64,000 nt of DNA, from contig NZ_CP016777.1 in assembly GCF_002288225.1 (NCBI RefSeq), positions 1,054,001 to 1,118,000 on the forward strand, in the 5' to 3' direction. Shown piece by piece: positions 54,111 through 56,805 of the stretch. Made by a program: the position numbers and the translations under genes. This DNA is from Candidatus Planktophila dulcis. GTDB taxonomy: Bacteria; Actinomycetota; Actinomycetes; Nanopelagicales; Nanopelagicaceae. Numbering within the stretch: the stretch's first letter is position 1; each line of letters starts with the position of its first letter. The notes under the pieces are model-generated. The model was not told where the DNA came from. It saw nothing but the letters and a program-made list of their open reading frames with translations, and searched no databases.

Positions 54111-55127
54111 TTAGAGGCTAAGCCCCACAAGGTTAACTTCAGTCTCTAAGGTAATTCCAAACTTCTCAAAGACGCTCTGCTGAGCACTCTTTGCAAGCTC
54201 TGCAATATCTGTAGCCGTTGCATTTCCTGCATTTGTTAAAGCTAAAACATGCTTCGTTGAAACGCGTGCACCACCATGGCTATCGCCCTTGTGTACACCT
54301 GCATGTTCAATCAACCACGCAGCACTTGTCTTGACCATGCCATCTGATGTTGGCCACTGAGGTGCACCTTCAGGCAACTTTGCTGCAATCTCTTTAGAGA
54401 CGATGGGGTTGGTAAAGAAAGATCCTGCAGACCATGAGTCACGATCGCTGGGATTAAGAAGCATTCCTTTGGCCCCACGCAGTTCAAGAACAGCCTTACG
54501 CGTTGCATCAATAGGTGCCTTCTCGCCCACTTCAATACCTAACTTCTTTGCAAGTTCTGCATAGGTAATAGCGGTAGTCATCTCACCTTGGCGCAGATTA
54601 AATTGCACATCCAAAACTACATATCGACCAGGGTGTGATTTAAAGTGTGAATTGCGATAGGAGAATTCACATTCAGAATTTGTGAAAGTCTTAAGTCCCT
54701 TTGCTTGGCGGTCATATGTGCGCACGCGAGTAATAAACTCAGCAACTTCATGGCCATAGGCACCAATATTTTGAATCGGCGCAGCTCCCACCGTGCCAGG
54801 AATTCCACTTAAGGTTTCAAGACCTGCAAAGCCACGATCAAGTGTTACTGCAACGAATTCATCCCAGTTCTCACCTGCACCAATTGTCAGTGTTGCACCG
54901 CTGCATGCATCAACTTCAGATTGCATCGAGTGGCTCTTAATGCGAATAACAGTTCCTTCATAACCACTATCTGCAACGAGGATATTTGTTCCTCCCCCGA
55001 TGATGAGAATCGGGGTATCACCTGCAGCCTCAATCGCTGCAATGATTTCTGCTTCTGTGCCCACTTCAACAAACTTCTTGGCAGGGCCGCCCACACGCAA
55101 AGATGTGTAATCGCGAAGGTCAGCCAT
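54111..55127 (-). CDS. murB: UDP-N-acetylenolpyruvoylglucosamine reductase
   Basis: FAD enzyme making UDP-MurNAc. The 338-residue protein has LRVGGPAKKFVEV, the FAD-binding IIGGGTNILVADSGY, LSGIPGTVGAAPIQNIGAYG, the type I loop YRNSHFK and the catalytic serine in DSWSAGSFFTNP. It lies 9 nt after the glycosyltransferase-like gene in the rpmG-hadA-hadB cluster, where many actinobacteria also keep murB. Confidence 0.97.
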   Translation of the reverse strand: MADLRDYTSLRVGGPAKKFVEVGTEAEIIAAIEAAGDTPILIIGGGTNILVADSGYEGTVIRIKSHSMQSEVDACSGATLTIGAGENWDEFVAVTLDRGFAGLETLSGIPGTVGAAPIQNIGAYGHEVAEFITRVRTYDRQAKGLKTFTNSECEFSYRNSHFKSHPGRYVVLDVQFNLRQGEMTTAITYAELAKKLGIEVGEKAPIDATRKAVLELRGAKGMLLNPSDRDSWSAGSFFTNPIVSKEIAAKLPEGAPQWPTSDGMVKTSAAWLIEHAGVHKGDSHGGARVSTKHVLALTNAGNATATDIAELAKSAQQSVFEKFGITLETEVNLVGLSL

Positions 55128-55136
55128 GTTCTAAGG

Positions 55137-56027
55137 CTACCTGCGTGGACTCAATATTGCAGTCTTGCCTCTGAAGCGCTCGAGGATGCGGTCGTAATTC
55201 TTCTTCGATTGAGCATCACGATATTCAGGGTCAGTATCGTGATAACCATGATGGCGATCTTGTTCCAGTGGTAAATCTATCTGCAGTAAACGGCCATTGG
55301 AATGGCGAAGGTTGAGCGAGAATTCAATATCTGCATTGCGGTAATAGAGCGCGCGATTGCTAAAGCCGCGTGCAGCAAGTGCATCCTCACGATGCATGGC
55401 AAGAAAGTAGCTAAAGAGAACATCGACTTCGCCAGCGCCCTTATCGTCAACGCTTCGCCAATCATCTTCAAGATTGATAAGTCCCCCGCGCCAACCAACG
55501 GCAACGAATTCTCGTTTTTTGAGTTCTGCAAGAACTGGAGTGATGGCATCGCCCGTAAAGCGAGTGGAGGGATCCATAATCACAATGAACTCACTGGTGA
55601 CATTACGAAGGAGTGCGTTGGCACTTTCTCCCCAACCAAAGTCTTCTGTGAGTTGAACTAACGATGTGCGTGAATCAAGTTCGTTGACTAGAACTCCTGG
55701 GTCACCGACTACCAATATCGCAATCGCACACTGGCTATGTTCTTTAATTGTTTTGATAGTTGTGACAGCATCTTCTTGGAAGCTGTCAATAATCATTGCA
55801 ACGGTGATCTCAAATTTGCCTGAATTAATAGGGCGAATATCGCGCGTTGATTCATAGGTAGGAAAGCGCTTCTTGGGGCGAAGTTCATATCCCCCAGCAC
55901 TATCGACTACTTCAAATCCTTGAGCTGCAATCTCATCACGTAATTGATCTGAGAGAGCGAAGTTCTTCTCCGCGCGAGCTGCAAGGCGAGCCTTTGCTAA
56001 CTCGTGGACTGAATCTGGCGCACTCAC
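55137..56027 (-). CDS. Glycosyltransferase-like protein with CysRS C-terminal-type N-terminus
   Basis: A 296-residue protein. Residues 1-50 (HELAKARLAARAEKNFALSD and LRDEIAAQGFEVVDSAGGYE) closely resemble the C-terminal anticodon-side domain of cysteinyl-tRNA synthetase, not a usual glycosyltransferase start. From about residue 70 a GT-A-like fold follows: VAMIIDSFQ, ANALLRNVTSEFIVIMDPSTRF (DPS where DxD is usual) and RNADIEFSLNLRH. It contains no synthetase catalytic motifs. The start is GTG at 56027, overlapping hadB as GTGA. Function unknown; a sugar-transfer role is inferred from fold only. Confidence 0.7.
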   Translation of the reverse strand: MSAPDSVHELAKARLAARAEKNFALSDQLRDEIAAQGFEVVDSAGGYELRPKKRFPTYESTRDIRPINSGKFEITVAMIIDSFQEDAVTTIKTIKEHSQCAIAILVVGDPGVLVNELDSRTSLVQLTEDFGWGESANALLRNVTSEFIVIMDPSTRFTGDAITPVLAELKKREFVAVGWRGGLINLEDDWRSVDDKGAGEVDVLFSYFLAMHREDALAARGFSNRALYYRNADIEFSLNLRHSNGRLLQIDLPLEQDRHHGYHDTDPEYRDAQSKKNYDRILERFRGKTAILSPRR

Positions 56028-56419
56028 TTGATTACTACCGCTTTTGCCATTCCTAGAACTTTTACACCTGCAGATGTTGCACTCAAAGAAAGTGAAATCT
56101 TTCCATCTGCAACTTCAGCAACGGTTGCAGTGACTGTGAGATCTACTTTCTCACCAGCAGGAACAATCACAGGCTTAATAAATCGTGCGCTGTATTCGAG
56201 AACGTTGACAGAACCACCCGCAAAGTCAGATACATACTTTCCAACCAGAGCCATGGTGAGCATGCCGTGGGCAATCACATTGGGAAGTCCCACAGATACT
56301 GCAAACTCTTCATTCTGGTGGATTGGGTTCTGATCCCCTGATGCATCGGCATATGCTTTAAGCAGAGCGCGATCGAGATAGAAAACTTTCTCATCCAATA
56401 CTGTGCCCACTTCAATCAT
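56024..56419 (-). CDS. hadB: MaoC-type hydratase, HadB-like
   Basis: A 131-residue single hot-dog domain. Asp29 and His34 (YADASGDQNPIH) form the catalytic pair of R-specific hydratases, and VIAHGMLTMALVGKY is the helix that follows. With the neighbouring hadA product it should form a heterodimer dehydrating 3-hydroxyacyl-ACP or -CoA. In mycobacteria the same pair, at the same locus, works in the FAS-II mycolate system; no mycolate genes are seen here. ATGA overlap with hadA. Confidence 0.88.
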   Translation of the reverse strand: MIEVGTVLDEKVFYLDRALLKAYADASGDQNPIHQNEEFAVSVGLPNVIAHGMLTMALVGKYVSDFAGGSVNVLEYSARFIKPVIVPAGEKVDLTVTATVAEVADGKISLSLSATSAGVKVLGMAKAVVIK

Positions 56420-56805
56420 GCTCGCACCACCAATGTGGACCAGGCGGAGATAACGAGCTTGCCATCGCGATGTAAATCTGAGCGCACAGAGACAATTTCA
56501 TTTCCGGCAGCTACGCGATAGCTCTCAATAGTTGCAGCACATGTCAGGTTATCGCCGGCCTTAACGGGTGAGAAGATTTCAAACTTCTGATCTCCATGAA
56601 CTAAGCGCGACCAATCGAGTCCAATTTCAGGACGCGTAAGAATCTCTTCGAATTGAGTCAGGGTGATGCGGATGGTGAATGTGGGCGGTGCGATTGTTGT
56701 ATTGCTTTCGCCGATGGCAGCGCAGAAGGCATCGATTTCAGATTGAGAAAGGGTTACTGAATCTGTACCCGCGAAGGTACTCCCGACCGAATCGGGGTTG
56801 AGCAT
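56416..56805 (-). CDS. hadA: MaoC N-terminal-type dehydratase subunit, HadA-like
   Basis: A 129-residue hot-dog domain of the FAS1-DH/MaoC_dehydrat_N type, lacking the catalytic Asp-His pair. Typical parts are APPTFTIRITLTQFE and WSRLVHGDQKFEIFSPVKAGD. It is the stabilising, substrate-binding partner of HadB. The ATG overlaps the rpmG stop as TAATG. The order rpmG-hadA-hadB matches Mycobacterium. Confidence 0.88.
   Translation of the reverse strand: MLNPDSVGSTFAGTDSVTLSQSEIDAFCAAIGESNTTIAPPTFTIRITLTQFEEILTRPEIGLDWSRLVHGDQKFEIFSPVKAGDNLTCAATIESYRVAAGNEIVSVRSDLHRDGKLVISAWSTLVVRA

Follow-up and report, generated by a model that had tools for sequence, protein, structure and literature searches.

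The synthetase-derived proteins covered in the available part of the review PMC9437257 are MshC, GluQ-RS, LysX and a cysteinyl-tRNA synthetase (CysRS) without its anticodon domain, and words starting with 'glycosyl' are absent from the main text of the review. LysX, MshC and GluQ-RS, as described in that part of PMC9437257, resemble the protein reported here in using synthetase parts outside ordinary aminoacylation; they keep a synthetase catalytic part, whereas the present fusion has the anticodon reader only. The YqeB-like proteins also occur in actinobacteria and also carry the CysRS C-terminal domain (CysS_C, Pfam PF23493) outside a synthetase, but with a PH-like partner instead of a glycosyltransferase (GT) and with the G34-contact set lost. 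No description of a CysS_C-glycosyltransferase fusion was found in the open-access literature, judged by titles and abstract openings, and an anticodon reader kept without catalysis represents, to our knowledge, the rarer direction among synthetase-derived proteins.

A fusion of this kind is encoded in the window (the whole 64,000-nucleotide stretch of DNA that was analysed), in the following setting:

55137..56027, minus strand: CysS_C-glycosyltransferase fusion gene, 296 aa, GTG start
55875..56015, minus strand: CysRS-type anticodon-binding domain, residues 5-51, helix-helix-strand-strand (Pfam PF23493, PDB profile search, isolated-domain model)
55947..55988, minus strand: R14-D27 stretch with R14, R18, F23 and D27, equivalents of E. 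coli CysRS R423, R427, W432 and D436
55140..55817, minus strand: GT-A fold, glycosyltransferase-2-like domain, residues 71-296 (Pfam, AlphaFold2 model, structure searches)
55566..55574, minus strand: DPS, residues 152-154, replacing the DxD metal motif (from the sequence; aligned with DAD of TagF)
55329..55331, minus strand: D233 in YRNADIE, D in 151/153 GT domains, putative active-site role
55251..55253, minus strand: H259, near the C-terminus, kept in 151/153, candidate metal or substrate ligand
56024..56419, minus strand: hadB-like MaoC dehydratase, 4-nt overlap with the fusion gene
56416..56805, minus strand: hadA-like dehydratase (FAS1_DH_region, Pfam)
54111..55127, minus strand: murB, UDP-N-acetylenolpyruvoylglucosamine reductase, 3' neighbour of the fusion gene

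The start of the fusion gene overlaps the hadB stop in the GTGA at 56024-56027, and 9 bp separate its end from the murB start, in agreement with the original prediction of a gene coupled to hadB and placed ahead of murB. Taken alone, the window protein has two borderline Pfam scores, barely at the cut-off: 23.1 bits for CysS_C (cut-off 23.0, residues 4-45) and 23.3 bits for Glycos_transf_2 (PF00535; cut-off 23.3, residues 117-190). The NCBIfam CysRS models matched residues 6-49 weakly, with their own C-termini (best E=0.0012); the protein as a single query against PDB sequences reached only E=0.067, making a family profile necessary; and the PHROGs search gave only a weak match to phrog_36975, a family of unknown function (E=0.029). 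Both assignments are nevertheless firm, because relatives and the family profile match more strongly. Six family members were scanned with Pfam, four fused and two GT-only. Two of the fused relatives were clearly over the CysS_C cut-off (L199, 35.9 bits, with 55.6 bits for GT2; L215, 45.1 and 52.5 bits) and two were just below it (L203, 22.0 bits, with GT2 over the cut-off; L157, 21.6 bits, with GT2 also just under, at 22.1 bits); as for the GT-only members, L217 was over the GT2 cut-off and L166 had no match. A 16-row family profile led from residues 5-51 to the C-termini of solved CysRS structures (3tqo, E=2e-6; 1li5/1u0b, E=3e-5), and from part of the GT half to TagF (E=0.001). The profile search had been named beforehand as the test that could refute a CysRS tail in residues 1-50, and the match obtained was significant, with structure and conserved residues in agreement. 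Neither a class I catalytic domain (tRNA-synt_1e) nor a bPH_10 domain was found among the Pfam matches of the fusion ORF, and the NCBIfam matches were confined to model C-termini, in keeping with the predicted absence of synthetase catalytic motifs.

Structure prediction, proposed together with the profile searches as a check, recovered both the CysRS-type anticodon fold and the GT-A fold. AlphaFold2, run on the whole protein with a 16-row alignment, modelled two domains (mean pLDDT 90.6, pTM 0.81): a helix-helix-strand-strand unit at residues 5-51, and a GT-A fold from about residue 71 to the C-terminus. The best match of the whole model was polypeptide GalNAc-transferase T2 (Z 20.4, rmsd 2.8 A over 221 residues, 10% identity); the match list was filled by GT folds and silent on the N-terminal domain (N-domain), which was therefore searched separately. 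Predicted alone (56-residue model, pLDDT 89.2), the N-domain had the E. coli CysRS-tRNACys complex 1u0b as its first Foldseek match (E=0.036, prob 1.00, TMq 0.77), with no Foldseek match at E <=0.001. The VIA search also placed 1u0b first (chain B, 411-461; Z 7.5, rmsd 1.8 A over 51 residues), followed by the CysRS 3sp1 (Z 5.4) tied with a UvrB fragment (5.3). A Z of 7.5 is modest on its own for a model of 56 residues, and counts through its agreement with the sequence evidence.

In 1u0b, as described in the available part of PMC12684709, R427 and D436 hydrogen-bond G34 of tRNACys, W432 stacks on G34, and R423 and D436 take part in a water network at G34. The profile aligns with E. coli CysRS without gaps (residue n of the window protein is residue n+409 of E. 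coli), placing R423, R427, W432 and D436 at R14, R18, F23 and D27. All four positions were kept in 128 of the 132 distinct fusion domains when scored at a fixed position, a set that includes related sequences and is not one of independent cases. By eye, three of the four exceptions were shifted registers with the full motif and one was real (R18K in L170), giving 131/132 after register correction. The set was present in 44/46 distinct fusion domains from outside the window's family, both exceptions being register shifts, and in 30/31 CysRS domains from genomes of the class (31/31 after register correction). Position 23 was F in 113/132 fusions, W in 9 and Y in 7; the 31 CysRS domains had W in 14, F in 12 and Y in 4. 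The CysRS C-terminal domain and the N-domain are thus alike in sequence family, fold (1u0b, Z 7.5) and G34-contact residues, and differ in that the fusion carries the domain N-terminally, without a synthetase catalytic domain and with Trp49 replaced.

The YqeB-like proteins, in which CysS_C stands behind a bPH_10 domain (control L220), served as a control for these residues (labels L219-L222, L250-L255 and L257-L264 were examined). Their 14 distinct CysS_C domains had lost the aromatic residue at 23 in 14/14, R18 in 13 and D27 in 13, and the R18-aromatic-D27 set was found in 0/14; D27 is retained in L262, and L222 retains R at 18 if its one-residue insertion is placed later. Other residues were kept: R30 in 14/14, G37 in 13 (not L259), D42 in 13 (E in L262) and R14 in at least 13/14. 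As R14 is retained in most of these domains too, it may be structural. The CysS_C fold therefore survives without R18, the aromatic and D27, so that the fusions, in keeping all three, probably retain an RNA contact; the YqeB-like domain probably no longer reads G34.

The cysteine identity elements include G34, C35 and A36 (PMC9976931, in its available part), which makes tRNACys the likely partner. We conclude from the conserved contacts that the N-domain has probably retained its binding to an anticodon loop, with tRNACys the most likely partner. Of the earlier suggestion of a tRNA- or RNA-binding module, the identity of the domain as a CysRS anticodon domain was upheld; RNA binding itself we infer from the kept contact residues. 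Mean dN/dS of the N-domain within the genus (21 sequences) was 0.069, indicating purifying selection, a value no lower than those of the linker (0.051) and the GT domain (0.047) in the same set; these are rough estimates, with synonymous sites close to saturation.

A competing explanation, which we consider rather unlikely, is that CysS_C is a recycled fold serving as a protein-protein or dimerisation module on an ordinary envelope or metabolite glycosyltransferase unrelated to tRNA. CysS_C was already used away from synthetases, on the YqeB-like PH-domain proteins, and Trp49 of CysRS has been replaced in the fusions: among the 132 fusion domains, five of which were too short to score, position 49 was W in 0, L in 102, F in 17, I in 4, R in 2, H in 1 and E in 1. 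Trp was present in 27/31 CysRS domains and is kept by the YqeB-like domains too, so that its absence from every fusion also tells against the anticodon-binding reading that we favour, although this Trp is not known to be a defining contact. The recycled-fold explanation is hard to reconcile with G34-contact residues kept in 131/132 fusions while the YqeB-like fold persists without them.

In the GT half, the fold, the structure matches and the alignment all bore out the expectation of a GT-A-like domain with DPS in place of DxD. The alignment comprised 153 domains (152 distinct plus the row of the window protein). The first DxD position was D in 145 and E in 8; the third was S in 143, A in 3, H in 3, G in 2, T in 1 and Y in 1, and D in 0/153. 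Near-invariant residues were G178 (153), G181 (153), D86 (152), P253 (152), D233 (151), H259 (151), S274 (150) and D160 (148). D233, in YRNADIE, stands at what we take to be the position of the GT2 catalytic-base motif. A conserved G-D pair at 55548-55553 follows the degenerate DxD (G159 in 135/153, D160 in 148/153) and may partly substitute for it. The GT2 family (PF00535) and the window protein are alike in GT-A fold, in a Pfam match at the cut-off and in active-site layout; the fusion differs in the replaced third D of DxD and in the attached RNA-binding-type domain. Polypeptide GalNAc-transferases, the top structural matches, have a DxH motif and a lectin domain. The window protein shares their GT-A core over residues 71-296 (Z about 20, 2.8 A), at about 11% identity, and differs in having no lectin domain and DPS instead of DxH.

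These substitutions raise the possibility of a dead GT fold, that is, a pseudoenzyme whose nucleotide-sugar pocket serves for sensing or as a scaffold and is coupled to the state of the tRNA. None of the 153 domains has the third D of DxD, the first position is E in 8, and an Asp seen by eye in members of other families, within what is presumably the usual GT2 nucleotide-binding motif, is not found in the window's family. D233 and H259, at active-site-like positions, are on the other hand each kept in 151/153, and metal-independent GT-A enzymes exist; we regard a dead enzyme as the least probable of the explanations considered. The near-invariant D86, D152 (or E), D160, D233 and H259 argue for a working active site, and from this pattern catalytic activity without the third D of DxD appears possible.

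If the enzyme is active, the tRNA itself could be its substrate: a tRNA-modifying glycosyltransferase would read the anticodon of tRNACys, or of another G34 tRNA, and then glycosylate that tRNA. The retained anticodon-reading residues would suit such an enzyme, and animals glycosylate the wobble nucleoside (mannosyl- and galactosyl-queuosine; PMC12518689, available part). The GT domain is, however, retained in members without the N-domain, and the queuosine version fails on the distribution of tRNA-guanine transglycosylase (TGT). No TGT was found in 18 of the 34 fusion genomes (each with a completeness of 90% or more), and it was found in 9/14 GT-only genomes and in the genome of the window, indicating that the family is not tied to queuosine. 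We know of no bacterial glycosylated tRNACys, and consider a tRNA-modifying activity improbable.

The gene neighbourhood was conserved mainly within the class. Among 40 class-level loci, 34 had hadB no more than 1 kb upstream and 31 had murB immediately downstream; such dehydratase (hadA, hadB) and wall (murB) neighbours would suit an ordinary envelope enzyme with a recycled CysS_C fold. Among 20 loci of the phylum outside the class, hadB was upstream in 7 (within 161 bp in 6 of these), and murB was found in 0/20 at E 1e-4, some contigs ending close by. As hadB persists outside the class and murB was not found there, the hadB link looks older, and a cell-wall role rests on the class only. The cell-wall link proposed originally is thus weaker than it looked. 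In five loci from small related genomes (L164-L168), a GT without the N-domain is encoded between rpmG and murB, and hadA and hadB were not found.

The family was present in 67 of 394 genomes of the class and 33 of 296 of the phylum (the window's own genome included in both). The phylum search gave matches in 41 genomes, 8 of which were dropped because the sole match was a short N-domain in a long frame, taken as CysRS. Among 41 near genomes, 25 had a match, that of G012 being to CysRS only, leaving 24. An assembly artefact or chance frame fusion is ruled out by this recurrence in the near, class and phylum genomes. The survey of the fusion, also proposed as a check, found both halves in 53/67 class genomes (12 without the N-domain, 2 cut by contig ends; in G091 the two halves lie on two contigs) and 29/33 phylum genomes (2 GT-only, 2 partial). 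A tree of 65 selected GT domains, with midpoint rooting only, set the class apart from the other members of the phylum, and fusions occurred in both parts. The nearest named relatives in the tree were Actinobacteria bacterium IMCC25003 (L039) and Candidatus Planktophila versatilis (L047), which makes a Planktophila-type freshwater actinobacterium the very probable source of the window. The N-domain was absent in 13/65 rows, corresponding to 7 changes, at least 5 of them forced by supported branches. Most simply, the fusion is old and the N-domain was lost repeatedly, also in close relatives of the window's genus, indicating that the core function of the GT does not need it. This repeated loss is the main point against any essential role of tRNA, and would be expected if CysS_C were a dispensable protein-protein or dimerisation module. 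A sensitive search of the few kb around the gene in the 13 GT-only loci gave no convincing CysS_C piece elsewhere, rejecting a split gene; in L151 it gave meaningless matches only (best E 7.6). Plasmid records contained one distant match, in a Nonomuraea record (query 67-282, 24.8% identity), without the N-domain part.

On this evidence we favour, at about an even chance, a GT-A glycosyltransferase for which an anticodon loop, with tRNACys the most likely source, acts as a tether or a switch by way of a CysRS-derived N-domain. The N-domain would stem from a cysteinyl-tRNA synthetase, acquired early in the history of the actinobacteria, and would grip the anticodon loop via the G34 pocket. The bound tRNA would then tether or switch the transferase and be dispensable to the enzyme, since the enzyme persists in several lineages that lack the N-domain; the chemistry would lean on D152, D160, D233, H259 and conserved arginines and not on a standard DxD-bound metal. 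A broader and doubtful proposal is that of an anticodon-reading actinobacterial glycosyltransferase that docks on tRNACys via the G34 pocket, with the tRNA serving either as sugar acceptor or as a means of controlling sugar transfer; such control, if true, would be by cysteine or translation status.

Base-reading residues kept phylum-wide on an enzyme outside translation predict a specific protein-tRNA contact without a known purpose. A real contact would tie tRNA, and perhaps cysteine supply, to the transfer of sugars in freshwater actinobacteria, which are common, and in related lineages. The fusion, being old, widespread in actinobacteria and conserved in its tRNA-reading residues, hints that transfer RNA and sugar chemistry are connected in a way not described so far. 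The fused enzymes, the enzymes without the reader and the YqeB-like proteins with the fold but a lost pocket form a ready comparison set.

Further observations concern the CysRS genes and individual members of the family. The genome of the window has two full-length CysRS ORFs, L029:4-1641 (G000:C1, about 983.7-985.3 kb) and L032:244-1653, both with tRNA-synt_1e (310 and 407 bits, respectively) and CysS_C over the cut-off. The L029 CysRS is extended at its N-terminus, where SH3_Rv0428c matches below threshold (13.9 bits against a cut-off of 27), and DALR_2 is not among its listed matches; DALR_2 is present in the L032 CysRS. In family f17 (large genomes; L151, L153, L154, L155), long, low-complexity-looking linkers precede the GT domain; L153 and L155 retain CysS_C, L151 and L154 lack it, and L154, in which most of the conserved C-terminal residues are gone, may be degenerate. 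Several public genome records with this gene (L042, L062, L066, L113 and others) bear the titles Bifidobacterium breve, Streptomyces griseus or Streptomycetaceae; their copies group with or closely resemble those of freshwater Planktophila relatives, and the titles look wrong.
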